A DNA stretch of 64,000 nt from Bacillota bacterium (GTDB taxonomy: Bacteria; Bacillota; SHA-98; UBA4971): the NCBI GenBank assembly GCA_012516125.1, contig JAAYXB010000014.1, positions 62,001-126,000 on the forward strand, written 5' to 3'. The notes under the pieces were generated by a model. That model made no database searches and had not been told where the DNA came from. It was given only the letters and a program-made list of their open reading frames with translations. A program made the translations under genes and the position numbers. This document shows, in pieces, positions 7,838 to 63,659 of the stretch. Numbering within the stretch: position 1 is the stretch's first letter; every line of letters starts with the position of its first letter.

Positions 7838-9277
7838 TCATCTCAGCCGGCGCGGGTCGCGCGGATCTATGATGAGCGGCTGGTCCTCTTCGTCGTCCTC
7901 CTCCTCGGCGGTGTCGGTTTGTTCCTCCTCTTCCCAGTCTTCGTCCCATTCTTCCTGCCAGTCTTCGTCCCAATCTTCGTCCCAGCCCTGCTCCCAGCCC
8001 TCGTCTTCTTCGTCTTCGCGGAGAGCCTGGTCGACGATGCCCTCGGCCGTCGCGGTCCCGAAAAGGGGCCTCACCATGCGGTGCCGTTCTATCTCAGCCC
8101 TGAGCCGGCGGAGCCTCCTCGCTTCGGGTGTGCCCTCCCTCACAACGCCAATGCTACGTTCCACGAGCACCTCGACGAACGGGATCTCGCGAAGGGGCTT
8201 ACCGTCCGCGATGGCAAGCGCAGCGGCGAAAGCAGAGCGCGCAGGCTTCTCCCGGCCGTCGAGGAGCAGCAAGTACGCCGTTTCCTCCAGGCGCCTCCGG
8301 TACTTCTGCGCCACCTCCTGGGTAAACAGGGCCGCTATGGCTTCGTCGACGATCGCACGAAGACGCTCGTTCCGAACGGTCTTGCTCGTGTAGATGACGC
8401 TCTTTGCCACGGCGAGGGCTTTCTCCCGGTACGGCTTCGTCTCTTCATCATCGAGGCCCCAGGGACACGCGAACAGCAGGCTCAGAAGACGGCTCGAGTC
8501 GCGGAGCGCCGTGGCATCACCTCTTATCTCGTCGGCATCCATCTTCTCATAGATGATCGGACGAGTGGGAGCCGGAGGCATGCGCTTCACAGCCTCGCTA
8601 TACAAGAGGTACTCTCGAGGCATCTCCCCCGCAGCCGCGCGCCTGGCCTCGGCGGCCTCTTTCAGCAGGAACCTTGCGTGCTCTGTGTCGATCTCTACAA
8701 GCCTCATCTCCTCTACGGCGTCGCGCATGAATTCCTCGAGCTCGCGCTTGCTCCCGTGGAACACGCGGCAGTCATCGATTCCGAAGTCTTCGCCCAGTAC
8801 CCACACGATGAAGGCCCTGCCCCGGGCTGGGGCCCACACGTGGGTGGCGAGCACTCTCGTGCCCACCCAGTCGTAGTACCCGGCGAACGCCCTTTCGACC
8901 TTGCCGGCAGGCACGGGGATCACCGGCACTCGCTTGGTTGCAGGTTCCGGCCCGGCAGCGGGATGAACGCCGGCGGACCTCAGCCTATGCAATGATCGGC
9001 CGGCTTCCTTGCGCACGGCCTTACTATCCGCCAGGTCTTGTATCCTCACGAGTGCATCGGCCGCCGACTCGTCTCGCACCTCGCTCAGGGCGCGCGCCGC
9101 GGCCCGAGCGACGCGAGGGTTGTCGCCCGTCGCGAGCCGTTCGAGGCCAGCCACGGCAGCAGCTTGCATGCTCCGAGCCGCGTTGCCAAGAATGCTGTCA
9201 ATCTCTTCGTCCGAACGCGCCTCGAGCTCCTCGGGCGCAGGTATGCCAGGTTCACTCCTCGAAGCCTCCGTGTCCAT
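7838..9277 (-). CDS. HEAT-like repeat protein of unknown function with acidic WDEDW tail
   Basis: I do not recognise a named family. Residues about 15-110 form alpha-helical pairs resembling HEAT repeats (GLERLATGDNPRVARAAARAL). The middle, about 120-410, is a mixed alpha/beta region with the notable stretch YDWVGTRVLATHVWAP. The last 60 residues are extremely acidic with repeated WDEDW/WEEEW units and end in DPRDPRRLR. No signal peptide or membrane segment is seen. I prefer the ATG at 9277 (MDTEASRSEPG; GGAGG 12 nt upstream) over a longer frame to 9349. It stands alone, convergent to no close gene. Confidence 0.6.
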   Translation of the reverse strand: MDTEASRSEPGIPAPEELEARSDEEIDSILGNAARSMQAAAVAGLERLATGDNPRVARAAARALSEVRDESAADALVRIQDLADSKAVRKEAGRSLHRLRSAGVHPAAGPEPATKRVPVIPVPAGKVERAFAGYYDWVGTRVLATHVWAPARGRAFIVWVLGEDFGIDDCRVFHGSKRELEEFMRDAVEEMRLVEIDTEHARFLLKEAAEARRAAAGEMPREYLLYSEAVKRMPPAPTRPIIYEKMDADEIRGDATALRDSSRLLSLLFACPWGLDDEETKPYREKALAVAKSVIYTSKTVRNERLRAIVDEAIAALFTQEVAQKYRRRLEETAYLLLLDGREKPARSAFAAALAIADGKPLREIPFVEVLVERSIGVVREGTPEARRLRRLRAEIERHRMVRPLFGTATAEGIVDQALREDEEDEGWEQGWDEDWDEDWQEEWDEDWEEEEQTDTAEEEDDEEDQPLIIDPRDPRRLR

Positions 9278-9349
9278 TTCCGCAACAGGCCTCCCCCGCA
9301 CATAGCCCACGCGGCCAGGCAGCACCGAGCATAACCTGCCCGCAGGCAA

Positions 9350-9779
9350 TTAACATCACTATTCTACCCATGTTGCGGAATCCCTGCCGCAGCAGTCAGA
9401 GCAAAGACCCGGCATTTGCCACCTGGCACGCGGGTTCGCCGGTTCGACGCGAACTTCACGGATACCCAGAAGATCCCAGAAACGCGAGACAGCGATCTTA
9501 TGCAAACCTTTCGCTGGACGGGAGCGCGGGCCTCGCCCCAATCCACAGCTTCCACGCGCTGCTTGCGGAACTTGGGCACGCTCGCGCGAAACACCGTCAG
9601 GATTCCGAAGCTCCCTGATGTTCTTTCACTGTGACCACGACCCCACCCCCCTCCAGAGGAAGGCCTTGAGGCGTGCAGCCCTTAACACACACGTAGACAG
9701 AACCTCCCGGCGGGAACGCCGCAAAAAGACGCCGTTACATTTCCGCTTCTGTCGCCAGGAACTTCGGTTTGGACAGTGC
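9350..9779. other. Intergenic stretch without recognisable gene
   Basis: I see no supported coding sequence here: short frames on both strands lack homology, ribosome-binding sites and the codon pattern of the neighbours. No repeat element of the window's families is present. It separates the HEAT-like gene from the 3' end of the TrmB operon. Confidence 0.5.
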
Positions 9780-9805
9780 GGGGCGGCCTACCGAGAGGCC
9801 GCCCC
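9780..9805. terminator. Strong hairpin after the binding-protein gene
   Basis: GGGGCGGCCT and AGGCCGCCCC form a perfect 10-bp stem with loop ACCGAG, 55 nt past the stop of the solute-binding protein gene. No T-run follows on the minus strand, so it may protect the 3' end of the transcript rather than act alone as an intrinsic terminator. Confidence 0.5.
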
Positions 9806-9860
9806 ACCAGCGTGGAGGTACGTGGAGTTCGCCAGGAGTGCGAGGTACGCAGGCTTCCCG

Positions 9861-11084
9861 TCACTTCATCTCTGCTATAGCCTGCCTGATGGTGGTTACG
9901 GCGTCAGCAAGCGCTGCTTCCGGAGTCTTGTCCCCTCGCAGGGCTAGTTCAATTGCCTGGTTCATCGGGCTCCACACTGCGTTCATGGCTGGTATGTCTG
10001 GAAGCACTGAGCAGTACGACGCCTGGGCGCCGAACCCAGCAACCTCCGGGGTGCTCCTCACGTCCGGCATTGCAAGGACATCAGTCCTTGTGGGTATGCC
10101 CTCAGCTGCCTTGAACGATTTGTACATCGCATCAGCTGACGTAATGTACGCGATAAACTTCAGGGCGTCTCCCTTCCTCTTGCTGTAGGAGCTTATGTGC
10201 CACCATTTGAGGCTCACGAAGGGGGCCGGGTACTTGCCGTTATCCAGTTTCGGGATTGGGGCCACCCCGTACTTGATTCCGGCCTGCTTGACACCGGCAA
10301 TCACCCACGGACCGTCGATTATGGCACAGGCCTTCTTCTCAGTGAACTTCGTCTGCGAGACGACGTGGTCGGTTCCGACAGGCACGAGCCCCTCGTCGCG
10401 AAGGGTCTTGAGGAGCTTGATTGCCCTGACTGAGCCCGCGTTGTCAAGGCCGATATCCCTGACGTTCCAGTCGTCATCGGTCTTCCCAAAGACGTATCCG
10501 CCATAGCCCTTCATTATCCCGTAGGTATAATAGAAGTTCTCAAGCGGCCACAGTACGCCGAAGAGCCCTCTTACCTTGAGCTCGCGCGACCTCTGGACGA
10601 GTTCCGCCATCGTGTCGGGCGGGTCCGGCATAAGCTCACGGTTGTAGATGAGTGCCACCGAGGAGATGTCGTATGGCACGCCGTACAGCTTCCCGAAGTA
10701 GGTTGCAGCTTCGATCCCAACTTCGATGAAGTGTTTGAGATCCAGGAGAGACTTTTCGATCGGGGACACCATCCCGGTCGATACCAGCATCCCCAGTTGG
10801 CCGCTCAGGCAGGGAAAAACGTCCGGCCCTTTGCCGAGCGGCCCGGCCAGCTGGACCTTGTTGGCTGTTTCGAGGACTGACACGGGTTCGACCTTGACCG
10901 CTATGCCGGTTTCCTTAGACCACTTGGCAGCCAGGTCCTGGATCGTGTTCAGCTTGTGAGGCTCGCACCATACCAGGAGCGGCTCGGTGGAAGCGGCCAC
11001 TCCGAGGGCTGGTAGCAGCACCAGAAGAGCCACTGCCAGAGAGAGAATCAGCCGACGCACAACGTTTCCTCTTATTAGGGTCAT
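9861..11084 (-). CDS. Extracellular solute-binding protein of a maltose-type ABC importer
   Basis: Binds a sugar or sugar derivative outside the cytoplasmic membrane and delivers it to the permease. An N-terminal signal segment (LILSLAVALLVLLPALGVAA) precedes a family-1 binding protein with AAKWSKETGIAVKVEPVSV, GKGPDVFPCLSGQLG, YGVPYDISSVALIYNREL and KACAIIDGPWVI in the usual order. GGGAGGAG lies 8 nt before the ATG at 11084. It is the last gene of the TrmB-MalF-MalG operon, after a gap of about 200 bp, which often lets the binding protein be expressed at a different level. No lipobox cysteine is seen, which would fit a periplasmic protein in a diderm cell. Substrate unknown. Confidence 0.88.
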   Translation of the reverse strand: MTLIRGNVVRRLILSLAVALLVLLPALGVAASTEPLLVWCEPHKLNTIQDLAAKWSKETGIAVKVEPVSVLETANKVQLAGPLGKGPDVFPCLSGQLGMLVSTGMVSPIEKSLLDLKHFIEVGIEAATYFGKLYGVPYDISSVALIYNRELMPDPPDTMAELVQRSRELKVRGLFGVLWPLENFYYTYGIMKGYGGYVFGKTDDDWNVRDIGLDNAGSVRAIKLLKTLRDEGLVPVGTDHVVSQTKFTEKKACAIIDGPWVIAGVKQAGIKYGVAPIPKLDNGKYPAPFVSLKWWHISSYSKRKGDALKFIAYITSADAMYKSFKAAEGIPTRTDVLAMPDVRSTPEVAGFGAQASYCSVLPDIPAMNAVWSPMNQAIELALRGDKTPEAALADAVTTIRQAIAEMK

Positions 11085-11283
11085 GTCCGGATCTCCTCCC
11101 TGCTCGTCGAGTTATCACGCGTCCAGATGACGCAGGCACTGTAACACCGACCGTTCCCGCACGGAAATCAAATGAAACATTGCCGAGATTGACGCCAGAC
11201 TAACGATCACATGGGGCCTCTCCCGCCCTCGCAACTCTCACCTCCATGAAGTCAGCGTTTTTCGTCCGTCTTCTTTGTCAGTC

Positions 11284-12150
11284 TCATTTCACCGCGCCCC
11301 GGGTGAGGCCGGGGATGATGTACCGCTCGGAGCTCAGGAAAATGAGGACCATGGGAATCGCAGCGAGAACCGAAACTGCCGAGAATAGCGGCCAGGATGT
11401 CGCAAACTGCGATATGGTCAGGCTCCTCATCCCCATGGCGAGGGTCCACTTGCTACTCGAGGTAATTACGACCTGGGCCAGGAGGTAATCTGCATACGGC
11501 CCTATGAAGTTGATGAGCCCCACGACATACAGGATCGGCTTTGCGAGCGGAAGAACGATCCTCGTGAACGCGCCGAAGCGGGTCGCGCCGTCTACGAGTG
11601 CAGATTCCTCAATGGACCTCGGAAGCGAGTCGAAGTAGCCTTTAAGCAGCCAGACAGAGAATGGGATGCTTCCTGCTGCGTAGATGAGGATTAACCCCAG
11701 ATGGGTGTCGAGAAGCCCTGACCAGCCCAGGAGCGTGTAGAGGGCAACTATCGCCATGAAGCCTGGGAACATCTGGATTATGAGTAACCATATGAGGCTC
11801 GCACGTCTTCCTGGGAACCTCATCCTTGAGAAAGCATAGGCCGCCGGGGCCGCCAGGACAAGCGCTGCAAGGGAACTCATGGCGGAGACCTTGACCGTGT
11901 TGAAGAACCACCTGGGAAAGAAGATATTCCTGTCGGTGAAGATCTGGCGGTAATTTCCCAGGGAGGCCTCGGTCGGGATAAGGCTTGAGCCCACGATTCC
12001 TGCGGTCGCCCTGAACGAGCACGATACTATCCAGAGGAGAGGATATAGCACGAAGACACATGCGATCACGAGAACGAGGTATGCGCCTGCTGTGCCGGGC
12101 CGGCCGGCCCGAACTGGTCTTGTGCATTTGGGTTTGAACCTGTCAGCCAT
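11284..12150 (-). CDS. MalG-type sugar ABC transporter permease
   Basis: Inner-membrane permease with six predicted helices. The cytoplasmic EAA loop that contacts the ATPase is SIEESALVDGATRFGAFTRIVLPLAKP. The start overlaps the upstream malF-type gene by 8 bp, so the two are translationally coupled. No ATP-binding subunit is encoded nearby; a shared MalK/MsmX-type ATPase elsewhere in the genome would be needed. Confidence 0.9.
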   Translation of the reverse strand: MADRFKPKCTRPVRAGRPGTAGAYLVLVIACVFVLYPLLWIVSCSFRATAGIVGSSLIPTEASLGNYRQIFTDRNIFFPRWFFNTVKVSAMSSLAALVLAAPAAYAFSRMRFPGRRASLIWLLIIQMFPGFMAIVALYTLLGWSGLLDTHLGLILIYAAGSIPFSVWLLKGYFDSLPRSIEESALVDGATRFGAFTRIVLPLAKPILYVVGLINFIGPYADYLLAQVVITSSSKWTLAMGMRSLTISQFATSWPLFSAVSVLAAIPMVLIFLSSERYIIPGLTRGAVK

Positions 12151-13486
12151 CCTGCTCGCCCTCCCCCTGAAGCTGCATTATTGCTCCCGAGAGCCTGAAG
12201 TTCAGCATGCTCATGCCGACGACGATCAGGAAAATGATCACAGCCAGCGCTGATGCATAGGACCACTGGAGCTGCTGGAAGCCGAGGTTATAAACCCATG
12301 TAATCAGGATGTCAGTGGCCCCTGACCCTCTTGAGCTCGGCACGGCCGGCCCGCCTCCGGTGAGAAGGTAGATGATGCTGAAATTGTTGAAGTTCCCAGC
12401 GAAAGAGAGCACCAGGACCGGCGCGACGACTCGGAAGAGTAGTGGGAAGGTGATGCGGGCAAAGCAATCCCACGCAGATGCTCCGTCCACGCGAGCGGCC
12501 TCGTAGAGCTCAGTGGGGATACTCTGAAGCGCTGCCGATGACACTGCCATGTTGAACGGGAACCCCACCCACACGTACGTAAGGAGTACGGCGATTTTCG
12601 CCCAGAACGGATCCTGGAACCACGGGATTGCCCGAAGCCCGATGGATTTCAGAATCTGGTTCACCGGTCCGAATGTCGTGTTGAAAAGGCCGGAAAAGGT
12701 CATAATGGACACGGTGGCTGGGATGGCCCACGGGAGCATCAGAATGGCCCGGAACAAGCTTCGCCACCTCACACCCGGGTTCAGGAGGGCGAGCGCAATG
12801 CCCAGCCCGAGGCCGAACGCGAGTGTAGTTCCGAGCACCGCCCAGGTAATGTTCCAGACGAACACCCGGAGGAATTCGGCACGCCAGGGTGAGAGCGGTG
12901 ACAATATCCTCTTGAAGTTCTCAAAGCCTACCCAGCTGAAAAGGTTGGCCGGGGGCGAATGGTAGAGGTTATAGTTGGTGAACGCCAGGCAGATGCCGAA
13001 TACGAGCGGAACGAGAATCACAAGGGTCGCCCCTGCGAACGCAGGCGCTGTGTAGAGGTAGGGGGAGACCGCCCCAAAAGAACGGAGGCGCACCCTCCGG
13101 GACGCCTGCCGCTGCCCCCTTGCGCCCCTTGCGGCGTCGAGCACGTTATAGACGTGGAATGAGCCGTACATGAGGGCGACCATTGCTGCGAGAATGCCGG
13201 CAAGCAAGATCTGCCTCGAGTCATCGACACCGGGCCTTGTTCCCAGGGTCCCGAGCCTGGCAAGCGGGAGCGCGAGAACGCGAAAGTACAAGACACAGAA
13301 CAGCACCTCGATGAGCGCGAAGAGAGCGCCGCGCGTGCCTCTTCCGAACACCATCTGTCCAAGCCCGGCCACGGGGACTGATAGGAGCCCCGCGACAAAC
13401 GGTCTTGCGCAAGCTGGATCGAATACAGGCTTTGGGGAGACCCGCCTTGTGGAACCTTCACCGCGCTGACATTTCGCCTTCGACAT
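12143..13486 (-). CDS. MalF-type sugar ABC transporter permease with extra N-terminal membrane segments
   Basis: The core from about residue 145 is a normal MalF permease (LYTAPAFAGATLVILVPLVFG; EAA loop ELYEAARVDGASAWDCFARITFPLL). The first 130 residues add three hydrophobic segments (FVAGLLSVPVAGLGQMVFG and others), an architecture seen in some long MalF proteins. I start at the ATG at 13486 (MSKAKCQRG), with GGGAG 9 nt upstream, rather than a GTG ten codons earlier. It pairs with the overlapping MalG-type gene. Confidence 0.88.
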   Translation of the reverse strand: MSKAKCQRGEGSTRRVSPKPVFDPACARPFVAGLLSVPVAGLGQMVFGRGTRGALFALIEVLFCVLYFRVLALPLARLGTLGTRPGVDDSRQILLAGILAAMVALMYGSFHVYNVLDAARGARGQRQASRRVRLRSFGAVSPYLYTAPAFAGATLVILVPLVFGICLAFTNYNLYHSPPANLFSWVGFENFKRILSPLSPWRAEFLRVFVWNITWAVLGTTLAFGLGLGIALALLNPGVRWRSLFRAILMLPWAIPATVSIMTFSGLFNTTFGPVNQILKSIGLRAIPWFQDPFWAKIAVLLTYVWVGFPFNMAVSSAALQSIPTELYEAARVDGASAWDCFARITFPLLFRVVAPVLVLSFAGNFNNFSIIYLLTGGGPAVPSSRGSGATDILITWVYNLGFQQLQWSYASALAVIIFLIVVGMSMLNFRLSGAIMQLQGEGEQDG

Positions 13487-13578
13487 AATCCTGCTCTCCC
13501 TGATGATCGGCGCCACTTCCGTGTGTGTTGCATCGAATGGCTTGCAGGCCGGGCGGTGGCATTGCCGCAGCCGTCACC

Positions 13579-14697
13579 TTACGCTCCTGCGGTGCGTGGC
13601 GTGCGGGCGCGCAACATGGCTTTGAACATCGATATTACTTCCTCGGCCTCGGCCCGCGTAGCCGTGGTAACACAGAATACAACTTTAGCCTTGGATGCAA
13701 GCTCGAAGCACTGTTCAACCTCCTCCGCCGACGCGTTTATGGCGAGCGCGGGTGTGTCTGCCGTCCCGTCAGTGAGTGATGGGATTCGCTGGATGAGTTC
13801 CTCGAGTATCGTGACAGGGCGCCGCTGATTCGGATCGTCGACGATCTGAAGCTGCCTCAAGCCCCTAAGTTTGAGGAATTCGGGGACGGCGTGCGCTCCA
13901 GCCGAGTGACAGTGGATGTCGCACTGCCCGAATCTTCGGATAAGCTCCTGTGTGTATGGGAGGCCGAACTCGACATAGTGAGAAGGCGAGCACAAGCTCG
14001 CAATGTCTTCGGAGATCGCGATTCTGTCAGGGGCTGTATGAAGTGATGCAAACTTGTGAACCAACCCATCCCGGAATACCTGGGCATTTTGTGCCCGAGC
14101 GAACCAGTCGATCGCGTCCACGCAAAACCCGAGGAGCTTATGAACCCAGGCCGGATCTTCATAAAGGTCCAGGTAAATGGCTTCTCCGCGTAGGGACCAA
14201 GCCAGGTCGAGCGGAGAGTAGTAGCCCCTCGCAAACGGGATACGATAGGGCGCGATCCTCTCGACCATGTACCTGGTAGCGAGGTTCAGCATGAGAAACC
14301 ACTTGTTCCGTGGATCGAGCTTCAGGGAGTCGAGGGCTTCCTTATCAGGGAGGACCGGCTGAACCCAACTGGTGTCAGGGCCGAATTCGATTTCTCCGGC
14401 GACAAACGCGCTGTACTCGCCGATACCGAGGTATGGCCCAACTGCGGGAACCCAGTCGTCTTCCAGTCCACGTCTCATCTCCATGAGTTCGGCCTGGTAC
14501 TCGAGGTAGTCGTCCAGGTACTGCGTGAGCTGCGTCTCGTAGTCGTAGGAATCGAGGCGAGGACCCTTTGCTTCGAGCACCCCTGGGAAGGTGTAAAGGA
14601 GCGGCCCGAGGGTCCCGGGAGGGGATGAGAAGAACCGGCGTATGCGCTCGACACAGGAGTCTACATCTGGCTTATAGTACGAGATGTCTTTGAACAT
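13579..14697 (-). CDS. Uroporphyrinogen decarboxylase-like (UroD/MtaA-superfamily) protein
   Basis: A TIM-barrel protein of about 370 residues related to UroD and corrinoid-dependent methyltransferases. Recognisable parts are the PYTQELIRRFG helix and CDIHCHSAG, which sits where the superfamily places its metal or substrate ligands, followed by GLRQLQIVDDPNQRRPV. These catabolic-operon homologues are mostly uncharacterised and are not haem-synthesis UroD. The ATG at 14697 has GGAGG 7 nt upstream; an earlier ATG overlaps the TrmB stop. A decayed RACo-like gene nearby (16659-17270) hints at former corrinoid chemistry in this locus. Substrate unknown. Confidence 0.7.
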   Translation of the reverse strand: MFKDISYYKPDVDSCVERIRRFFSSPPGTLGPLLYTFPGVLEAKGPRLDSYDYETQLTQYLDDYLEYQAELMEMRRGLEDDWVPAVGPYLGIGEYSAFVAGEIEFGPDTSWVQPVLPDKEALDSLKLDPRNKWFLMLNLATRYMVERIAPYRIPFARGYYSPLDLAWSLRGEAIYLDLYEDPAWVHKLLGFCVDAIDWFARAQNAQVFRDGLVHKFASLHTAPDRIAISEDIASLCSPSHYVEFGLPYTQELIRRFGQCDIHCHSAGAHAVPEFLKLRGLRQLQIVDDPNQRRPVTILEELIQRIPSLTDGTADTPALAINASAEEVEQCFELASKAKVVFCVTTATRAEAEEVISMFKAMLRARTPRTAGA

Positions 14698-14723
14698 GAG
14701 ACCCCTCCGTTCATCATCGCCCG

Positions 14724-15569
14724 TCATCGCCTGACCTGTACCGGTATGTTCTCCGCACTGAGACCAAGTCTTCTATGGTAGTCGGTGACCACCCGCATAT
14801 AATCATCTGCCGAATGGATACACCTGGAGAGATCTCCCACGGATGCTACGAGCTGCGAAAGGTGGAAGATATCGAGCGTAAGCTGCTCCACGACGAGCTG
14901 GACAATTAGAGGGTTGGTCGTCAGTATCCCCAGGTTGCTGTCGTCTCGAATATCACCGATAAGGACCGTTCTGCCATCCGCGACGACCACTAGGCGCCGA
15001 TGAGGCCAGATTTTCCGGACGATGTCCTCGTCGAGGCCATACTCGTGAACGATACCGACCCTGAACGGGACCCTGCTGTGAGAGAATATGACCACCTTGA
15101 CCCCTCGTGCCGCGGCGTCCTCCAGCTCACCTCTGAGCGGCACAGAGTCGCTGCCCCAAACTGAGAGGGCCACCTCGTGCTCTGCGCCTCTTACGAGCTC
15201 CCGTGCCCGGTGGATCGTGTTCTCATAGCCCGAGATCCCGAGAATGTAACAGTCCTCGCCGATCCCGCTCTCGATCCTGGCAAGCTCAGTCTCAAGTCTG
15301 TCGAAACTCGTCTGCCACTCAGCCCTGCAACGGAGAAGAAGCTGGGAAGGTGGCAATGGGGCGTAGAGAACTGGGTCCGAATCCACCTTGAGCACGTAAC
15401 CTTTTTCAACGAGGCGCTCGAGGACCCCGTATATGACCGACCTCTTGATCCCCGATTGTTTGCTGACCTCGTACCCATTGGCCCGCCCCAGCCGAAGGAG
15501 GCATTTATAGGCCTTTGCCTCGTTGAGGGATAGCCCAATGCCCTGGAGAGCTTCAACCAGCCCAGCCAA
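14724..15569 (-). CDS. TrmB-family sugar-responsive transcriptional regulator
   Basis: TrmB proteins repress or activate sugar-transport operons depending on bound sugar. Residues 1-80 form the TrmB winged helix (GLSLNEAKAYKCLLRLGRANGYEVSKQSG; KRSVIYGVLERLVEKGYV), followed by a coiled linker and the C-terminal phospholipase-D-like sensor domain (CYILGISGYENTIHRARE). Start TTG at 15569 with AAGGA 9 nt upstream. It heads the operon with the UroD-like gene and the importer, and a 7-bp inverted repeat lies about 30 bp upstream of it, which makes autoregulation likely. Confidence 0.85.
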   Translation of the reverse strand: MAGLVEALQGIGLSLNEAKAYKCLLRLGRANGYEVSKQSGIKRSVIYGVLERLVEKGYVLKVDSDPVLYAPLPPSQLLLRCRAEWQTSFDRLETELARIESGIGEDCYILGISGYENTIHRARELVRGAEHEVALSVWGSDSVPLRGELEDAAARGVKVVIFSHSRVPFRVGIVHEYGLDEDIVRKIWPHRRLVVVADGRTVLIGDIRDDSNLGILTTNPLIVQLVVEQLTLDIFHLSQLVASVGDLSRCIHSADDYMRVVTDYHRRLGLSAENIPVQVRR

Positions 15570-15599
15570 TTTGAGTCATCCTTTCGATGATGCCGTAGA

Positions 15600-15623
15600 T
15601 AGTAGTCATGTCCTTAACTACTA
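15600..15623. promoter_or_regulatory. Candidate TrmB operator
   Basis: TAGTAGT-N10-ACTACTA is a perfect 7-bp inverted repeat centred about 42 bp upstream of the trmB start, between it and the divergent amidohydrolase. An AT-rich stretch (minus strand TAATATAG) that could serve as a -10 box overlaps it. Binding by the adjacent TrmB protein is inference from position and symmetry. Confidence 0.5.
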
Positions 15624-15850
15624 TATTAAGGCTGAGTTGAGGCGATGTCAAGGCCGGAAAGGAGCACGCCGATCTCGTCCAATGGTGGGGCGCGGAACAG
15701 CTATCCTGGAGCAGGAGAGAGTCTGGGGCAGGCGAATCAGGATAAAGGCGGAGACCACACGCCATGTCCAGGGACTCTGCATGGCAAATTTGAGCATATG
15801 TGAGTCTGACCCTGGAGGCGACCGGGACGAGATGTTGGGTGGGGTGGATC

Positions 15851-16615
15851 ATGACTTGGCGGCGAACGCGCCTTGTGTGTGACTGTCACTGCCATGTTGG
15901 GGCGTTCTACGACGAGCTCAAAGGGCAACAAGTCTCGTGTCGAGCGGACATCCTCTCAGGTCTCATGGTTCGGGCGGGAGTGGACATTGCGCTAGTATCG
16001 TGTATAGGAGCTTCGCGAGACCCCGTGAAGGCGAACAGTCGCCTGCTCGACGAGCTGGCGAGTTACTCAGGCCTACTTCCGGTGTTGTGGGTGACCCCGG
16101 GCAGCATGAGTGTGGAGGTGGCAGCAGCCCTGGTCTCCCAGGGATTCCTGGGGCTGAAGTTCCATCCGACAATGGGACGGTATCAAGCTGACTCCACAGT
16201 GGTCGACCCCTACCTTGAGCTCTGCAGGAAACACAGGATCCCGGCACTGTTTCACTGCGCTGCTGATGATTACTGTGCCCCGGAACGATACGCCTGGCTT
16301 GCGAAGAGATTCCCGGACGTCGACATCATTCTCGCCCACATGAACCTCTTCGGGAACCCTTGGGACGCTGTGAGGGTGGCTGAAGAGCACGAGCGGGTCT
16401 ACCTGGACACCAGCTGGGCGGGACCGGAGGCAGTCCTTTATGCATACCGGCGGCTCGGCCCTGCAAAGATCCTGTGGGGCACTGATGCCCCGCTCGGAGG
16501 GCAATCACATTACAGGGACGAAAAAGTCCGGAAGCTCGTTGAATCCGAACTGCCGGAGCACGACGCAGGACTGATTCTCTTCGGCAACGCCGCCCGGCTC
16601 TACCGGCTGCGATGA
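15851..16615 (+). CDS. Metal-dependent amidohydrolase (amidohydrolase-2 TIM barrel)
   Basis: A 254-residue hydrolase of the amidohydrolase superfamily: the first-strand metal motif is CDCHCHVG near residue 11 (HxH), then GLKFHPTMGRYQ with the second-site histidine, FHCAADD, DIILAHMN, and the late aspartate in ILWGTDAPLGG. Likely acts on a small carboxylic or lactone substrate taken up or produced by the divergent operon. I use ATG 15851, with GGGGTGG just upstream; a frame open to 15800 has no support. It shares the regulatory region with trmB. Confidence 0.85.
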   Translation: MTWRRTRLVCDCHCHVGAFYDELKGQQVSCRADILSGLMVRAGVDIALVSCIGASRDPVKANSRLLDELASYSGLLPVLWVTPGSMSVEVAAALVSQGFLGLKFHPTMGRYQADSTVVDPYLELCRKHRIPALFHCAADDYCAPERYAWLAKRFPDVDIILAHMNLFGNPWDAVRVAEEHERVYLDTSWAGPEAVLYAYRRLGPAKILWGTDAPLGGQSHYRDEKVRKLVESELPEHDAGLILFGNAARLYRLR

Positions 16616-16658
16616 CTGGAGACCCGGCTAAGGTATCGGCCTGCTACTCGAGGAATAC

Positions 16659-17270
16659 CTACTCCGCGAACATGTCCTGGGAACCCTGGTGAGCTGCGAG
16701 CTTAACGTGTTCGCTCGAGTCCGCCAGCTCATGGGCCCGCGCGTGTGCCTTATCGCTAAGGATCGGCAGGGCTGAACCCTCTCGGGCCGCATTTCCGACT
16801 GCGCGATTGCGCACGCACGTGCCCGTTTCGTCCTGGGCAGAAGACCAATCTCGGTAGCTGCGCCTTTGTGCAGGTATGTCCCGAATGCGCCGGCCAGGTA
16901 CACGTTGGCCAGGTCCTCAACCGCAAGGGCTGCTTCGGCGAAGAGGAGCTCGACTCATGCAGGAATCGCGCCTTTGGCGAGATGAAGCTCGCGGACATCT
17001 CTTTGAGTCAAGGCCACCCGCCGCGGAGGGAGAACCCGCGGCTTGGGCAGGCACCTTCCCTGCACCGGCTGCGCAAGGCCCTATCGCGAGGGCGGGGCCC
17101 GGTTGGTTATCCGCGAGCCTTCGGGCAAGGGGAGCGCGCGAGCCCTGGGTTTCACGGTTGACGCCTCCGCTGGCGTCTATGACCCCGGCCCTGCGGAGCC
17201 CCGCCACCAGGGACAACGGGCCCCGAGCCACACATCGCACGCCGCATGCCGCTGCTTCACAATGCAACTA
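16659..17270 (-). pseudogene. Decayed RACo-like (DUF4445) corrinoid-activation gene, C-terminal part
   Basis: Minus-strand translation recovers the C-terminal ASKHA domain of reductive activators of corrinoid proteins, but in pieces: LRRAGVIDASGGV near 17160; LTQRDVRELHLAKGAIPA then an in-frame TGA at 16957-16955; VELLFAEAALAVEDLANVYL and AGAFGTYLHKGAATEIGLLP; after a shift of frame near 16800-16850, VGNAAREGSALPILSDKA to a stop at 16659. Intact RACo proteins carry these segments in one frame. The N-terminal ferredoxin and middle domains are not detectable. Reads as a genuine pseudogene with one nonsense mutation and at least one frameshift. Confidence 0.75.
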
Positions 17271-17382
17271 CTCAATTCAGTTCGAAGTTCCTCGCGTTCG
17301 CTCGACTCGGATCTGACTGGACGTGCGCCCTCCGCTTCGAGTGCCGGGGACCCGATTAGCAGAGCATCTACGAGCCCATACT

Positions 17383-18831
17383 TCAAGCCCTGCACCGGTC
17401 CTCCGTCCTGCACGAAGCACCCCTTGTGCCGCTGGCGACGCCCTGCCTGCGGGACGACCCCGGGACGATCTTCCCCAGCACCACGCGCCGCCCGGCGCCG
17501 GTCGCCGCCGGCACGTTCGTCGGACGCCCCCGCACAGCCTCGCTCGCGAGGATCGCGAAGGCGATGGCCTCTTTGGCATCGCTGGAGATCCCGAAGTCCT
17601 CATGGGTGAGGACGACGACGCCCGGAAGGCGCTCGCGCAGCATGGCAAGGAGCGTCGGGTTATATGCCCCGCCGCCGCCCACGATGACCTCATCGACCGC
17701 CCGGCCGCACCTCGGGACCACCCATCGCCTGTAGCTTGCGGCGACGGACTCGGCCGTGAGCGCTGTCGCGGTGGCCACAACGTCCTCGCCGGGGATACCG
17801 AGGGCTGACGCCCTCGCCATCATCTCCTGCGCATACTGCGCGCCGAACTCCTCACGGCCGGTGGTCTTCGGGGGTTCCTTCGCGAAGAACGGGTGCAAGA
17901 GCGCCCATGCGAGGAGGTCTTCCCTCACCCTGCCGGATGCCGCCATCCTGCCGTCCTCATCGAATGCCTGTCGCCCCCCGGTCAGGATGGACACAACTCC
18001 GTCGATGACCATGTTGCCGGGACCGGTGTCGAACGCGAACACGTCGGCGAGGCCGCACCCGGCCGGAAGCGCCGTGAGGTTGGCGATGCCCCCGATGTTC
18101 TGGATGATCCTGGTACGGCGCGCATCCCGAAACAGGACATAGTCGGCGTACGGCACAAGCGGCGCCCCCTGGCCTCCCGCGGCCACATCGCGCACGCGGA
18201 AGTCCGCGACGGTGGTGATGCCGGTACGTTCGGCGATGACGGCAGGCTCGCCTATCTGAAGAGTGGACCTCGTCCGCACACCACAGCACGTCTCAGGCTC
18301 GGGGATGTGGTAGATGGTCTGGCCATGGGAGCCGATGAGGTCCACGTCCTCAGGCCCGAGGCCCGCCGCGCGGATAACCTCAAGGGCGGCAGCGGCGAAA
18401 ACCTCCCCGAGCACGAAGTTCATGCGGCAGACCTCATCCACGCTGGATGCCTCAGGCCGCATGAGGGTGAGCACGCGGGCGCGGAGGTCTGGAGGATAGG
18501 GAATCCTTCTGAACACCACTCCTCCAAGCTTGATGGACGGCGCCTCACAAGCGTCCGTAGCCCTGTCCTTGGCCTCGACCGCGGCGGCGTCCGCCGCGGG
18601 TCCGCTCATGGCAGCGCTGGCGGTATAGCTCGTGGCACAGCTTGCGGCACAGCACGCGGCATAGCTCGCGGTGTGGCTCGTGGCATAGCTCGCGGCATAG
18701 CTCGCGGGATGACCCATGGGGCAGCCTGTAGCATCGCCTGCGGCGCTACAGCAGCTATCGTGGATCTCCACGAGCGCCGCGTCCACGCCGTCCGCCGAGG
18801 TGCCCGACATAAGGCCGACGACTCTCAGCAC
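17383..18831 (-). CDS. anmK: Anhydro-N-acetylmuramic acid kinase with low-complexity insertion
   Basis: Phosphorylates 1,6-anhydro-MurNAc released during cell-wall turnover to MurNAc-6-phosphate. Signatures: GLMSGTSADGVDAALV at the start (ATP phosphate loop), GSHGQTIYHIPE, QIGEPAVIAERTG, NIGGIANLT, FDTGPGNMVIDG and GGGGAYNPTL. The family is about 370-390 residues; this protein has 482. About 75 extra residues lie at 24-98, with four-residue Ala-Ser-Tyr units (ASYA, ATSH, AASC) from a 12-bp repeat, between the first strand-loop and LGGVVFRRIPYP. The start GTG overlaps the hydrolase gene by 7 bp. The C-terminus also has about 25 non-family residues. Confidence 0.9.
   Translation of the reverse strand: MLRVVGLMSGTSADGVDAALVEIHDSCCSAAGDATGCPMGHPASYAASYATSHTASYAACCAASCATSYTASAAMSGPAADAAAVEAKDRATDACEAPSIKLGGVVFRRIPYPPDLRARVLTLMRPEASSVDEVCRMNFVLGEVFAAAALEVIRAAGLGPEDVDLIGSHGQTIYHIPEPETCCGVRTRSTLQIGEPAVIAERTGITTVADFRVRDVAAGGQGAPLVPYADYVLFRDARRTRIIQNIGGIANLTALPAGCGLADVFAFDTGPGNMVIDGVVSILTGGRQAFDEDGRMAASGRVREDLLAWALLHPFFAKEPPKTTGREEFGAQYAQEMMARASALGIPGEDVVATATALTAESVAASYRRWVVPRCGRAVDEVIVGGGGAYNPTLLAMLRERLPGVVVLTHEDFGISSDAKEAIAFAILASEAVRGRPTNVPAATGAGRRVVLGKIVPGSSRRQGVASGTRGASCRTEDRCRA
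18614..18711 (-). repeat. 12-bp tandem repeat inside anmK
   Basis: About eight imperfect copies of CATAGCTCGCGG (plus-strand reading) run in register with the anmK frame and encode four-residue units rich in Ala, Ser, Tyr and Cys. Unit length is a multiple of three, so copy-number change would not break the gene. Confidence 0.85.
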
Positions 18832-19886
18832 AGCAAGCTCACCACCACGTTGTGGAACCTCGGCCGGAGCCTTATGTGCGCCTCGTTCGTCCGGCCGAAG
18901 TGCACCCTGTTCGTAAGAAGCACGGCGAAGATATCGAGCTCAGGGTCGATCCATACGGACGTGCCGGTGAAGCCCGTGTGCCCGAAAGCCCTGGGCGACA
19001 TGAGGTCACCCGCCGACGAGAGCACGCCATCGCCGCGGACGGCCCACCCGAGGCCGCGGCTTTCGCCAAGGCGCGGGCCGGTATGGTCGCGCGTCATGGC
19101 CCGCACCGTTGCGGGCGACAGCACGCGCGCCCCACCGAGGGACCCTTCGCCGAGGAGCATCTGGCAGAACACGGCAAGGTCCCCCACGGTGGAAAAAAGC
19201 CCGGCGTTGCCGCTCACCCCGCCCATGGCGAAGGCGTTCTCGTCATGCACCTCCCCGACGAGCACCCGTCCGCGCCACTTGCAGTGCTCCGTGGCGGCGA
19301 CCCGCCCCCTCATCCCTTCCGGCGGGTTGAAGTATGTGTCGCGCATCCCGAGCGGGCCGAACACCTCGTCTGCAAGGAACACGTCCATGGGCCGCCCTGC
19401 GACCCGGCCCACCACCTCGCCGAGAATGATGAAGCCCAGGCAGCTATACACCACCTTGCTGCCGGGCTCGTATTCCAGGGGCATCTTCGAGATTCTCCCG
19501 ATCATGTCCTGGGGAGAGGACGCATGCAGGTAGAGATCCGCCCAGGCGGGAAGCCCTGATGTGTGCGTGAGGAGATGACGGATGGTGACGTTCTCCTTGC
19601 CCGCCGCGCCGAACTCGGGGATGAATTCCTTCACCGCATCGTCCAGCCTCATCCTGCCCCTCTCAATAAGAAGCATCGTCGCGGTCGCCGTGGCGACGCA
19701 CTTGGTGACCGAGGCGAGGTCGAACAGGGTGTCGGGCCTCATGCGCCTCTTCTCCGGGTGGACCATGGCAAACCCGCAGGCTCCCAATCCTGCCACGCCA
19801 TCTCTGGTGCCGAACGCCCACGACGCCCCGGGGATCTCGCCCGAGGCGCAAGCCTCCTCCAGCAGCTCCTCCACGCGCCGTTCCAT
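18825..19886 (-). CDS. Serine hydrolase of the beta-lactamase/penicillin-binding class C fold
   Basis: About 353 residues with the class C layout: nucleophile motif SVTK in DLASVTKCVA, a second motif YSC in KVVYSCLGF where most relatives have YSN, and the third-strand motif HTG in FGHTGFTGTS. No signal peptide is seen, so it is probably cytoplasmic. Relatives include esterases and D-aminopeptidase-like enzymes; linked to anmK and nagZ, a role in muropeptide or sugar-ester cleavage is plausible but unproven. I use the ATG at 19886; a GTG at 19904 is an alternative. Its stop overlaps the anmK start. Confidence 0.8.
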   Translation of the reverse strand: MERRVEELLEEACASGEIPGASWAFGTRDGVAGLGACGFAMVHPEKRRMRPDTLFDLASVTKCVATATATMLLIERGRMRLDDAVKEFIPEFGAAGKENVTIRHLLTHTSGLPAWADLYLHASSPQDMIGRISKMPLEYEPGSKVVYSCLGFIILGEVVGRVAGRPMDVFLADEVFGPLGMRDTYFNPPEGMRGRVAATEHCKWRGRVLVGEVHDENAFAMGGVSGNAGLFSTVGDLAVFCQMLLGEGSLGGARVLSPATVRAMTRDHTGPRLGESRGLGWAVRGDGVLSSAGDLMSPRAFGHTGFTGTSVWIDPELDIFAVLLTNRVHFGRTNEAHIRLRPRFHNVVVSLLC

Positions 19887-20118
19887 CACGCTGCAATCAC
19901 CCACCTCGCAAGGCGCTGACCCGTCCCGGTCCCTGTCCCGGTCCCGGTCCTGGTCCCGGCCCTAACCCCAGCCCTAAGCTCATTTTCCGCAGTAGAAACG
20001 TCTTCCCAGCTAAAGGGCGCAATGGTCGCGTGCCGCAAAACAGTTGGAGGACCCCGGTAACAGGCCCTTTAGCAGGTCATTGCTCAATTTGGCCGCGCTC
20101 CTAATGCGGAAAACGGGC
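19887..20118. other. Intergenic stretch with a GGTCCC microsatellite
   Basis: Contains a CCGGTC/CCTGGT-type hexamer run at about 19920-19970 and otherwise no supported gene. It is the start of the upstream region of the serine hydrolase-anmK pair; no clear promoter was read. Confidence 0.5.
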
Positions 20119-20242
20119 TAAGTGAGGGTGCGTTAGTGCTTGCCCCTTTTCCAGTAGTTCCCGGGTTGCCGGTGTCGCACTCTCTCTTTGAGTCACCGGC
20201 AACACCTCCCAGAAGTCGGAGGCATTTCTGCACCCTCACTCA
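20119..20242. repeat. Dispersed palindromic element, copy A (short form)
   Basis: Begins TAAGTGAGGGTGC and ends GCACCCTCACT; the inner stem GTTGCCGGTG-type / CACCGGCAAC encloses a short loop. About 124 bp, the same form as the copy at 61167. It lies 53 bp past the gntR-type stop codon. Confidence 0.85.
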
Positions 20243-21045: not shown

Positions 21046-21128
21046 TCGCGTCACCGCCCTCGGCTCATTATGCTACTTACGCTGCTCGCACCGCCCTGCA
21101 TGCTGCGCTGCGCCCCGCCTTCCCCTCC

Positions 21129-21323
21129 TAAGTAAGGGTGCGTTAGTTCTCGCCCCTCTTCCAGTAGTTGCCGGGTTGCCGGTGTTGCACTCGGGGACGG
21201 CGCCCCAAGCGGGGCGCCTTGACAAAATCCGGCCCGTCTGGCCAGTGGCCGGATTTTGACACCCCTCGTGCAATCACCGGCAACCCCTCCCAAAACTCGG
21301 GAGCATTTCTGCACCCTCACTTA
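21129..21323. repeat. Dispersed palindromic element, copy B (long form)
   Basis: 195 bp from TAAGTAAGGGTGC to GCACCCTCACTTA. Inside the second stem (GGTTGCCGGTG / CACCGGCAACC) are two further hairpins: GGCGCCCC-AAGC-GGGGCGCC and CAAAATCCGGCC / GGCCGGATTTTG. The terminal TTA (plus strand, 21321-21323) is the nagZ stop codon TAA. Confidence 0.92.
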
Positions 21324-23108
21324 GAGCCTGTGCCCGACCGGGTACATGCCAGGTATCTGCACCGGAAGCCTCCCCGTCGGCTTCGCCCGGCCAAGGAGGA
21401 CGTCGGCCAAAGCCTCCATGCTCACGCTAGATGCATTGAACGCTGCGAGGTAGGTGCCCACTGTGTCGTATTTCCGAAGGTCGTAGGGCTCGCGCAGGGC
21501 GACCGCTATCACCCGCCGGTGCTTCGCGGCGATGCTCGACACGAGCGCCGCCTGCCCCGCCCCCGCAGAAGACCACGCTCTGTAGGTCAGGATGATGACC
21601 GTGTCATACCGCTGGGCTCTCGCCGCGATGTCCTCCCGCTGGGCGGCATCGGGGTTGGTCGGCATCGATACCTCGTCCACGGTCTCGAGGGCGGGCCTGA
21701 GATAGCTCGCAAGGCTCGTTGGCTCGCCCGACTCGTCCTCAACCTGCGTGAGCGTCCCCACCTTCGGGAATACCACAAGGAGCCTGCCGGCAGACCGGGC
21801 GCTGAGGGGGACGAGTCCCTTCGCGTCCCTCACGAGGCAGATGGCACGGCGCGCCGCGTCGAGGGCAAGCTTGCGGTCCGCGTCCGACCCGACCAGCGCC
21901 TTTGCCCTGTTCGCGTCCACCAGGGGCGAGGCGAGGATGCCGCGCTTCTCCTTAACCGATAGAATCCTGCGCACCGACTCATCGACGCGCGCCATCGGGA
22001 TCTCGCCGGACTTCGCTGCCTGGACGAGCGCATCCGCCACGCGCACCGCGTCCTGCCAGTCCTTGGGCCACCCTATGAGGACCATGTCGGCCCCGGCATT
22101 CACGGCCATCACCGCGGCCTCCCCCAGGCCGAAGTTCTTCACTATGGCGCCCATCTCCATCGCGTCGGTCACGATGAGACCCCCAAATCCCATCTCCTGC
22201 CGGAGCAGGCCGGTGAGGACGGCGCGCGAGAGCGTGGCCGGCATCCCGGGTTTCGGCTCGACCGCCGGGAACGTAACGTGCGCCGTCATGATGGCGTCCA
22301 CGCCGGCATCGACCGCCGCCTGGAAAGGCTTGAGTTCGACGTCTTTGAGCCTCTTCCTGTCGTGAGGCACCGTCGGAAGGTCGATGTGCGAATCTAGCGA
22401 GGTGTCGCCGTGGCCTGGGAAGTGCTTCGCCGTGGCGCTCACCCCTTCTTTCTGAAAGCCCTGGATCATCGCCACACCGAGGCGGGCGACGGCCTCCGGC
22501 GACTCGCCGAAGGACCGTATTCCGATGACGGGGTTGCTCGGGTTGCTGTTGACGTCGACCACCGGCGCGAAGTTCATGTTGATCCCGCAGGCCCGAAGCT
22601 CACGCGCCGTGGCCTCTGCAACCCGGCGTGCAAGCTCGGCGTCCCCCGCCGCGCCGAGACCCATGTTGCCTGGGAAAGGCGTCGCCCCAGGGAGCCTCGT
22701 GACGTAGCCGCCCTCCTGGTCGGCGGCAACGAATAGCGGGATCCCGGCCCCCGATGACGCGGCCATCTTCTGCAGCTCGTTTACGAGGTACGCTGTCTGG
22801 AAGGGGTCCGACAGGTTCCGTGAGAACAGGATAACCCCTCCCAGGTGCCATTTCTCAATGAGGGTTCGCACCTCGGCCTCAGGGAGCTTGCCAGGAAACC
22901 CAGCCATGACCATCTGTCCGACCTTCTCCTCGAGGCTCATGCGAGAAAGCAGGGCGTCTACGCGGCTTTCTCCAGGCGCGGCTGTCGCGTCCATTTCCAG
23001 TCCTCCCATCACCAGAACGACGCATGCTATTGCCATCGGCACCAAGGCCACAGTTTTCGGGCGGGGTCGTACTATCATCTGAACCACTCGCTTTACTACT
23101 CGCCTCAA
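21321..23108 (-). CDS. nagZ: Beta-N-acetylhexosaminidase, glycoside hydrolase family 3 (NagZ-type), exported
   Basis: Cleaves terminal GlcNAc from muropeptides or other GlcNAc glycosides. The NagZ-type catalytic loop KHFPGHGDTSLDSH supplies the His-Asp acid/base pair, and VTDAMEMGAI supplies the aspartate nucleophile; ADQEGGYVTRL and NMNFAPVVDVN are family-typical. An N-terminal membrane/signal segment (VALVPMAIACVVLVMGG) implies export, unlike cytoplasmic E. coli NagZ. A C-terminal alpha/beta sandwich domain follows as in Bacillus NagZ (YbbD). Start TTG at 23108 with GGAGGTG 7 nt upstream. Its stop codon is formed by a palindromic element. Confidence 0.9.
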   Translation of the reverse strand: MRRVVKRVVQMIVRPRPKTVALVPMAIACVVLVMGGLEMDATAAPGESRVDALLSRMSLEEKVGQMVMAGFPGKLPEAEVRTLIEKWHLGGVILFSRNLSDPFQTAYLVNELQKMAASSGAGIPLFVAADQEGGYVTRLPGATPFPGNMGLGAAGDAELARRVAEATARELRACGINMNFAPVVDVNSNPSNPVIGIRSFGESPEAVARLGVAMIQGFQKEGVSATAKHFPGHGDTSLDSHIDLPTVPHDRKRLKDVELKPFQAAVDAGVDAIMTAHVTFPAVEPKPGMPATLSRAVLTGLLRQEMGFGGLIVTDAMEMGAIVKNFGLGEAAVMAVNAGADMVLIGWPKDWQDAVRVADALVQAAKSGEIPMARVDESVRRILSVKEKRGILASPLVDANRAKALVGSDADRKLALDAARRAICLVRDAKGLVPLSARSAGRLLVVFPKVGTLTQVEDESGEPTSLASYLRPALETVDEVSMPTNPDAAQREDIAARAQRYDTVIILTYRAWSSAGAGQAALVSSIAAKHRRVIAVALREPYDLRKYDTVGTYLAAFNASSVSMEALADVLLGRAKPTGRLPVQIPGMYPVGHRL

Positions 23109-28452: not shown

Positions 28453-29444
28453 ATCCCGAGGCCAGGCGCCCGCAAAGCTCGAGGTCAAGGTCCAGCTCGC
28501 GACCGGCGCCGGGATCTATACCAAGGTCGATGCCGAGATCGATGCCGAGGCCGACGGCAAAGCCGGTGGCGAGGCAGAGGTTCAAGCTGAGCCTCTCAGG
28601 AAGGCGCGCATTGTGGGGCTTCATCCTCCTCACTCCGTGGTTTGCCGGGATGGCCATCTTCGCCCTGGGGCCGTTCGTTCAGTCGTTCGTGATAAGCCTG
28701 AGCGAGGTGGACCTCATCCGCGGCTTCAACCTGAGGTTTGTCGGCCTCGCAAACTACCGCGAGGCGTTCGTGGTGGACCAGAGGTTCGTGCCGCTCCTCC
28801 TGCGCACGATTGCGGACAGCGTCATCAACGTCCCGATCATACTGGTCTTCTCGCTCGTAGCCGCCTTCCTCATAAACCAGCGTATCAGAGGGCTTGGGTT
28901 CTATCGCGCCGTCTTTTTCCTCCCCGTAGTGGTTGTTTCCGGAATAGTTGTGGAGCAGCTCTTCAACCAGGACATAGCTAACACGATGTACAGCGGGATC
29001 ATCCCAATCGTGCTGATGGTCTTCAGGTATTTCGGGAATCAGGTTGCCACGATGGTAGCCAACTTTCTGTCCACGATCCTCATGGTCCTGTGGCGATCGG
29101 GGGTGCAGATCCTCCTCTTCCTTGCCGGCCTTCAGGGGATCTCATGCACCTATTACGAGGCTGCGAGGGTGGACGGCGCAACAGACTGGGAGGTCTTCTG
29201 GCTGGTCACCCTCCCTATGCTCACGCCGATCATCCTGGTGAATATCATCTACACCATCGTAGACTCGTTTACTGACGTCTTCAACGAGATGCTGTTCTTC
29301 ATAAAGGACGTCGGGTTCTCGGGCAGCTTCAGGCTGGGGTACGCCGCTGCCCTCGGATGGATCTACTTTCTCATGATTTTCATCATCATCGCCATCGTGA
29401 CCCTGTCATCCCGCAGGTGGGTCTTCTATGGCGGTGAACGCTAA
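28449..29444 (+). CDS. MalF-type sugar ABC transporter permease (first pair)
   Basis: Six-helix permease with the EAA loop YYEAARVDGATDWEVFWLVTLPML. The start GTG at 28449 overlaps the DUF5696 stop and has AAGGGGGG about 8 nt upstream, so the two are coupled. The first 50 residues are low-complexity and basic (SRSRSSSRP, IPRSMPRSMPRP), encoded by short repeats. The stop codon TAA is the first three bases of palindromic element C. Confidence 0.87.
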   Translation: MNPEARRPQSSRSRSSSRPAPGSIPRSMPRSMPRPTAKPVARQRFKLSLSGRRALWGFILLTPWFAGMAIFALGPFVQSFVISLSEVDLIRGFNLRFVGLANYREAFVVDQRFVPLLLRTIADSVINVPIILVFSLVAAFLINQRIRGLGFYRAVFFLPVVVVSGIVVEQLFNQDIANTMYSGIIPIVLMVFRYFGNQVATMVANFLSTILMVLWRSGVQILLFLAGLQGISCTYYEAARVDGATDWEVFWLVTLPMLTPIILVNIIYTIVDSFTDVFNEMLFFIKDVGFSGSFRLGYAAALGWIYFLMIFIIIAIVTLSSRRWVFYGGER

Positions 29445-29636
29445 GTGAGGGTGCAGAAATGCTCCCGACTTTTGGGAGAGGTTGCCGGTGATTGCACGAG
29501 GGGTGTCAAAATCCGGCCACCGGCCAGACGGGCCGGATTTTGTCAAGGCGCCCCGCTTGGGGCGCCGTCCCCGAGTGCAACACCGGCAACCCGGCAACTA
29601 CTGGAAGAGTGGCGAGGATTAACGCACCCTCACTTA
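29442..29636. repeat. Dispersed palindromic element, copy C (long form)
   Basis: 195 bp, the reverse-complement arrangement of copy B with near-identical sequence, including both internal hairpins. It begins TAAGTGAGGGTGC and ends GCACCCTCACTTA; flanking CGC and GCG extend the terminal pairing. It sits between the two permease genes of one operon, where it must be transcribed. Confidence 0.93.
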
Positions 29637-29707
29637 GCGGATTCTGTTTGGCAAGGTGAGGGCGAGTTTTCACGATCAGGCTGAAGAAGCAGCAGGAGGC
29701 GTTCCAG

Positions 29708-63616: not shown

Positions 63617-63659
63617 GTCTCATAGCAGGCTCCACCTCCTGCTCGTCGCAAGGCCTCTT

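Follow-up and report, generated by a model that had tools for sequence, protein, structure and literature searches.

The minus strand of the window at 16647–17241 carries the 3′ third of a RACo pseudogene (DUF4445, corrinoid reductive activator), at the edge of an island of about 8 kb; the other island genes follow the order and orientation of a cassette which, in family f63, includes a complete corrinoid methyl-transfer set. The window is the whole stretch of 64,000 nucleotides analysed here (G000:C92:62001–126000), part of the 3.24 Mb draft genome of a Bacillota bacterium. We propose that the lineage acquired this cassette, that the cassette's own corrinoid module decayed, and that the loss was tolerated through an equivalent module on contig C63 of the same genome working in trans; we put the probability of this reading at roughly 0.6. 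Within it, the loss of the module is a well-supported step and tolerance through C63 a less sure one; the C63 module may serve the six remaining island genes in trans.

A preliminary description of this DNA, made from its letters alone, had proposed the remnant of a C-terminal ASKHA domain of RACo on the minus strand, and had made that proposal depend on profile similarity to DUF4445. Such similarity was found: a whole-genome search with Pfam RACo_C_ter (PF14574, cut-off 27 bits) returned the remnant as a single match spanning one TGA (E 4.4e-17, 62.4 bits). From 17241 to 16647, three pieces in differing frames match the domain in order. Taken separately, the profile matched the minus-strand pieces 16628–16954 (E 3.8e-9, 36.5 bits, profile positions 152–200), 16659–16916 (E 0.011, profile 198–244) and 16955–17080 (E 0.087, profile 128–149), and gave no match to 17081–17176 or 17177–17599. 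With the intact C63 RACo as query, tblastn aligned 17017–16796 (54% identity over 74 residues) and found a further match in another frame between 17222 and 16647. The extent first proposed, 16659–17270, marks the same place with slightly different limits.

Frame-tolerant alignment of 16500–17500 with the RACo of the f63 genome G160 scored 344, where 60 dinucleotide shuffles gave a mean of 60.7, a standard deviation of 7.8 and a maximum of 90. The corresponding scores, each with the maximum of 60 shuffles in brackets, were 298 (79) for the RACo of G280, 322 (96) for the genome's own C63 RACo and 169 (79) for its own C30 RACo; a start at 17474 in the alignment to the C63 RACo falls inside anmK and was taken as noise. 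When the window was tiled in 700-base steps on both strands, 16801–17500 on the minus strand scored 274, and the 178 of 182 tiles lying outside 16600–17300 reached at most 79. That the similarity arose by chance is refuted by these shuffle and tile controls and by the profile matches, and its probability is negligible. The remnant, whose GC content is 0.66, shares the C-terminal ASKHA domain with the RACo/AcsV/Ram activators (DUF4445; solved relative 3zyy) but differs from them in consisting of the C-terminal third only. Since the locus lacks one open reading frame, it is a pseudogene and not a working member of the family.

What survives is the last ~190 codons, with one in-frame TGA (16955–16957) and two or three frame changes. 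The TGA, already reported at 16957, lies within the PF14574 match, is crossed by the tblastn alignment and stands at 16957 in all nine alignments to RACos of the same clade. Selenocysteine at this codon was considered and rejected, since this position is Gly in all four aligned intact RACos and the reading frame is in any case disrupted. The single frameshift of the preliminary description has to be replaced by two to three, a count that depends on the price set for a frame change in the aligner: prices of 15 and 20 gave three with each of five references, and a price of 25 gave two or three. Two changes, at ~17017–17046 and 16802–16814 for most references, were present at each price tried, and a third lies near 17213 in most alignments. 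Three intact RACo genes used as controls gave zero frame changes at prices 15 and 20. A price of 10 over-calls, placing two compensating changes (gone at price 15) in an open permease gene of the island and as many as four in a control gene that is intact, and was not used.

The first ~375 codons of the gene, its 5′ two thirds, are missing. The N-terminal parts of eight RACos, covering the 2Fe-2S, linker and middle domains, gave no repeatable trace upstream of 17241. Likewise, no repeatable trace of a RACo N-terminus, corrinoid protein, second methyltransferase (MT2), PocR/AraC regulator or MetH-activation-like protein was found in four stretches of the window. One candidate trace of the N-terminus at 15560–15880, where one of 20 values lay above every shuffle (z 3.5, 30 shuffles), was rejected: with new shuffles it did not lie above all of them (48 against 53), and seven other RACos gave no repeat.

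The genome is a draft in 98 contigs, and the lesions could in principle be sequencing or assembly errors in an intact gene. We consider this very improbable, because several separate lesions and a large truncation of ~375 codons are concentrated at a single point of a 150 kb contig, beside six open genes in which 1960 neighbouring codons show zero lesions at a fair price.

The island (9350–17382) lies between anmK (17383–18831, minus strand) and a gene for a protein of 503 residues (7838–9349, minus strand). Next to the remnant, and convergent with it as in G160 and G280, is a gene for an Amidohydrolase_2 family protein of 271 residues (15800–16615, plus strand; the real start may be 15866), which is 48% identical to its G160 orthologue and free of lesions. 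The remaining genes are all on the minus strand. A TrmB-family regulator of 281 residues (14724–15569; 59–60% identity to the G160 TrmB) overlaps by four bases the start of the gene for a UroD-superfamily protein (13579–14727; orthologues suggest a start at 14697), for which we propose the role of MT1, the first methyltransferase. They are followed by two permeases of an ABC importer (12143–13516 and 11284–12150, respectively 56–59% and 69–74% identical to f63 orthologues) and by a solute-binding protein (9861–11084), whose nearest NCBIfam models are GanS and MalE, both below their cut-offs.

The anmK flank is conserved in three of five congeners (G001, G003 and G005), and in all three the island is absent after anmK. 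The next gene is DUF84/ITPase-like in G001 and G003; in G005 the 503-residue gene follows anmK directly and is itself followed by an ITPase-like gene, a label that is a reading of the open reading frames and not a profile result. A DNA search of window positions 13500–20000 against the five congeners matched nothing within 13500–17457 (E 0.001). The GC content is 0.57–0.61 over ~9.5–16.5 kb and mostly 0.62–0.69 in the surroundings, and GC3 is 0.68–0.74 in six island genes as against 0.75–0.86 in four flank genes. We infer, with good support, that the island entered the lineage from outside. Two further congeners, G004 and G002, are without window positions 9281–37476 at this place (28 kb, including anmK, NagZ and more), the region of the 503-residue gene being joined to 37477 and beyond. 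Because G004, the closest congener, and G002 lack the whole block, the insertion of the island cannot be dated from them. No long repeats were found at the island end in 9300–9900, and 16600–17500 holds one 16-base direct pair (16706–16721 and 17293–17308). The window contains no tRNA. Rfam at gathering thresholds gave no match in the window or in loci L154, L113 and L142, and no B12 riboswitch was seen there.

Orthologues of the UroD-like protein have a narrow distribution. Among 398 sampled genomes of the phylum, seven have matches at E 1e-30 or better, including its own; the other six (of 397) all belong to family f63, with identities of 54–59%. A search of the 12 genomes of the class of G160 returned the same six, and none of the five congeners has an orthologue. 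Within the eight genomes of f63, RACo occurs in exactly the six that have the UroD-like protein, with one match each, and the other two have neither; the count is small, these six genomes representing only three genera.

In G160 the cassette is complete. It comprises a TrmB regulator (opposite strand), a PocR/AraC regulator, a corrinoid protein, an MtaA-like UroD protein, an intact RACo, a protein with a Met_synt_B12 activation domain, an amidohydrolase (opposite strand), the UroD-like protein, two permeases and the binding protein. The window agrees with this arrangement in gene order and strand from the remnant to the binding protein, with two exceptions: some genes have been lost, and TrmB stands between the amidohydrolase and the UroD-like gene, unlike in G160. 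The position of TrmB counts against a simple correspondence. The G280 cluster is similar, with RACo, corrinoid protein and second methyltransferase sharing a cluster with the UroD-like protein; its contig starts inside the regulator, and two extra genes lie between the amidohydrolase and the UroD-like gene. In G234 the halves of the cassette are on two contigs, both ending inside the MetH-activation-like gene. Linkage is looser in G092, where the corrinoid module is ~10 kb from the UroD-like gene on the same contig, and in G257 and G324 the module was not shown to adjoin that gene; these genomes count against a fixed association. Two kinds of match lie behind the labels MtaA-like and methyltransferase-type corrinoid protein: those to the closest NCBIfam models (MtaA/CmuA family; MtgC and pyl_corrinoid), none of which reaches its cut-off, and those of the C63 copies to Pfam URO-D and B12-binding, which exceed theirs.

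Given that the cassette is complete in G160 and similar in G280, the remnant most probably derives from the cassette's own activator. The cassette's corrinoid protein and second methyltransferase are also gone from the window.

We note three further features of these and related loci. The protein that comes after RACo in the f63 loci is, in the G160 locus, small and stand-alone (L154 8328–9176) and matches the MetH activation domain PF02965 at 25.4 bits (cut-off 25); it left no trace in the tested window stretches. A further UroD-family gene, not typed as Mlp, lies 4 kb upstream in G160 (L154 1446–2573). In a plasmid search, one record of 72,556, the plasmid OY725838.1 (L209) of the anaerobe Subdoligranulum, carries a 28% identical homologue of the UroD-like protein, with three other UroD-family matches and, within 9 kb, a PocR/AraC-like regulator, a RACo, an MT2 and a short stretch similar to the corrinoid protein.

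The remnant could alternatively have arisen by duplication and decay of the C63-type RACo of this genome, with no relation to the island. Its best single scores are indeed with the C63-type RACos of G003 and G001 (355 and 353), not with those of f63 (344, 341, 301, 298, 293 and, for a partial sequence, 259), so that the C63-type proteins score as high as the f63 ones; in this comparison the genome's own C63 RACo scored 312 and that of G004 303. In a tree of 22 rows, however, the remnant falls in a clade with five f63 and four C63-type RACos of the genus (support 100/99) and outside both subgroups, the four C63-type RACos forming a well-supported group without it (98/97) and the f63 RACos another (82/86). 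A second reading of the remnant sequence gave the same picture, on a remnant branch that is long (1.23), a situation in which the tree program warns that placements are unsure. The position of the remnant outside the C63-type group is not what a recent copy of the C63 gene would show. Next to the amidohydrolase it has the same place and orientation as RACo in G160 and G280, and at E 0.001 no additional PF14574 match of such a type turned up in any congener. We therefore regard an unrelated duplicate as improbable, and it is synteny, not the tree, that ties the remnant to the cassette.

The genes that remain have fared differently from the RACo gene. Aligned with their G160 counterparts, the six show no stop over 1960 codons, and all except the permease gene mentioned above are free of frame changes even at price 10. 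At the rate of the remnant (four lesions in ~190 codons), ~41 lesions would be expected. This argues that the six genes have stayed under selection while RACo decayed; such selection gives no indication of what they do.

The preliminary description suggested that the locus may have lost a corrinoid methyl-transfer pathway while the UroD-like protein and importer remained. For the locus itself this is very probably right: the six f63 genomes with a UroD-like orthologue each carry a RACo, clustered with it in G160 and G280. It does not extend to the genome, which has not lost corrinoid chemistry. Both the intact RACo and the corrinoid protein that the description proposed to look for elsewhere are on contig C63. 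The RACo there has Fer2, linker, middle and C-terminal domains (match to 3zyy at E 4.6e-89) and adjoins a corrinoid protein and an MtaA-like UroD protein (MT2). A second, AcsV-like RACo on contig C30 falls short of the AcsV cut-off (672.7 of 800 bits); its neighbours are the Wood–Ljungdahl genes for CODH, ACS alpha/beta, the ACDS gamma subunit, MeTr and formate–THF ligase, all five above cut-offs. B12-binding domains (PF02310) occur at five places in the genome, and C63 has the only methyltransferase-type corrinoid protein among them; the other four places encode lysine 5,6-aminomutase beta, ornithine aminomutase OraE, a MiaB-type methylthiotransferase and a 571-residue protein (L161 1486–3201) with a weak N-terminal B12-binding match and no NCBIfam assignment. 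Three UroD-family genes were found in the genome: the C63 MT2, a second gene on C63 and that of the window.

The C63 corrinoid protein is present in three of the five congeners (as a partial match in G003), and C63-type RACos occur in the same three, so the module is old in the genus. Compared with five f63 genomes, G324 not included, the C63 proteins are 69–76% identical for the corrinoid protein (67–91% among the f63 proteins themselves), 69–73% for MT2 (73–87%) and 64–69% for the RACo C-terminus (62–89%). With an equivalent module already in the host, the local activator would have been redundant and its loss tolerated, which we hold to be the less sure part of the proposal.

Some peculiarities of the C63 module are recorded here. 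Its MT2 (L113 733–2007) has an insertion rich in Gly and Ala and resembling collagen (Pfam Collagen E 1.1e-4, under the cut-off) that is not seen in the aligned f63 MT2s, and its RACo has a Gly/Ser-rich insert. The module (L113, L114) clusters with a NagZ homologue (43%) and, from a reading of the open reading frames, with ROK, Gfo/Idh, kinase and SIS-type sugar genes, much as the window island has anmK and NagZ for neighbours.

The UroD-like protein is the candidate MT1 of the cassette. It is a divergent member of its family, matching Pfam URO-D at 24.0 bits (cut-off 23.9), which counts against a confident assignment, and it has no NCBIfam match. Profile comparison (hhalign) with an alignment of UroD and MT2 proteins gave 97.4% probability (E 1.5e-11, 141 columns), and a search of the PDB with the sequence and with profile A1 found nothing meaningful. 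A single-sequence AlphaFold2 model was discarded (mean pLDDT 37.6, pTM 0.22). At the His-Cys-Cys site, in a low-identity alignment to MT2s, the histidine (H274) is kept and neither cysteine position is Cys in any of the six aligned sequences; the window protein and five of the six f63 orthologues have HSAG in place of HxCG.

On the strength of the absent cysteines, and with the local corrinoid module gone, it could be argued that corrinoid chemistry has ceased in the island, that the UroD-like protein acts on the imported solute in some other way and that the module was lost as useless. We think this unlikely, if worth keeping in view. The same HSAG site is found in five aligned f63 orthologues, whose genomes keep RACo, and HSAG therefore did not arise with the loss of the module. 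Moreover, passages of PMC10418091 state that O-methyltransferases of the UroD superfamily replace one or both cysteines. A kept histidine without cysteines would fit an oxygen rather than a sulphur substrate, within the limits of a low-identity alignment. A sugar-like solute for the importer is only a guess, the binding protein being below the GanS and MalE cut-offs, and an O-methylated sugar is perhaps the substrate. A fuller version, in which the cassette demethylates an imported O-methylated sugar or oligosaccharide with corrinoid, the UroD-like protein is a new class of MT1, TrmB senses the sugar, the importer is GanS/MalE-like, and one shared module serves several plug-in MT1–importer units in trans, we offer as a rather doubtful speculation.

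For this family it is established (PMC6739815 and PMC13222342, in part) that MT1 methylates a Co(I) corrinoid protein, MT2 passes the methyl group on, and an activator re-reduces Co(II) with ATP. In our proposal, the UroD-like protein, as MT1, would transfer a methyl group from the imported solute to the Co(I) corrinoid of the C63 protein; the C63 MT2 would hand it on, and the C63 RACo would use its 2Fe-2S cluster and ATP to re-reduce corrinoid that had slipped to Co(II). The cassette's own corrinoid protein, second methyltransferase, activator and MetH-activation-like protein would have been deleted or have decayed, before or after the island arrived. A precedent for a distant activator is reported in a section of PMC13222342: in Acetobacterium dehalogenans, the activator for a chloromethane system with a UroD fold has a locus number far from cdmBC.

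The Acetobacterium systems Odm, Vdm and CdmBCA likewise combine MT1, corrinoid protein, MT2 and an ATP-dependent activator, CdmB having a UroD fold and the activator gene being able to lie away from MT1 (parts of PMC13222342 and PMC6739815). They differ in their substrates, which in these accounts are aromatic ethers or haloalkanes, and in CdmA, the presumed MT2, which is thought to use tetrahydrofolate (PMC13222342, in part), whereas the MT2 here is MtaA-like (URO-D). Type 1 mlp clusters, as presented in passages of Kountz and Balskus (PMC10418091), also combine a corrinoid protein and a Ram/RACE activator with proteins of the UroD superfamily, and the H-x-C and C motif is conserved in the MT2 of the cassette. 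Those clusters, however, have three Mlps, nearly all His-Cys-Cys, and are read by these authors, in the same passages, as thiol/selenol systems. The cassette has one MtaA-like protein, adjoining the corrinoid protein and RACo in G160 and G280, and a divergent UroD-like protein without the cysteines, together with TrmB, an amidohydrolase and a sugar-type importer. The main text of PMC10418091 has no mention of ABC transporter, sugar, TrmB or amidohydrolase, and no system combining RACo, UroD and a sugar importer was recognised in the open-licence literature searched by those words.

As a pseudogene the remnant is unremarkable. It is of value as a fossil, linking corrinoid methyl transfer with a sugar-type importer and with a poorly known UroD-like protein whose sequence, taken alone, gives hardly any sign of such a link. 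The locus also offers a natural experiment, in which an MT1–importer unit is without its own activator and corrinoid protein and a spare set is present in the genome, so that the sharing of corrinoid modules between substrate-specific units becomes testable.

Two minor observations concern the surroundings of the island. The window's AnmK, whose nearest named relatives (65–69% identical) are in uncultured Bacillota/Firmicutes MAGs such as UBA5449, has a repetitive insert rich in Ala, Ser and Tyr (~18600–18775), which exceeds the corresponding stretch of G001 and G003 in length and does not resemble it. The host is probably an uncultured, anaerobic member of the Bacillota. An interspersed repeat of ~50–200 bases occurs at 20118–20182, 21128–21324, 29441–29637, 33746–33892, 61241–61289 and 63569–63618; its copies are 77–88% like those in G004, and some also resemble one in G002.
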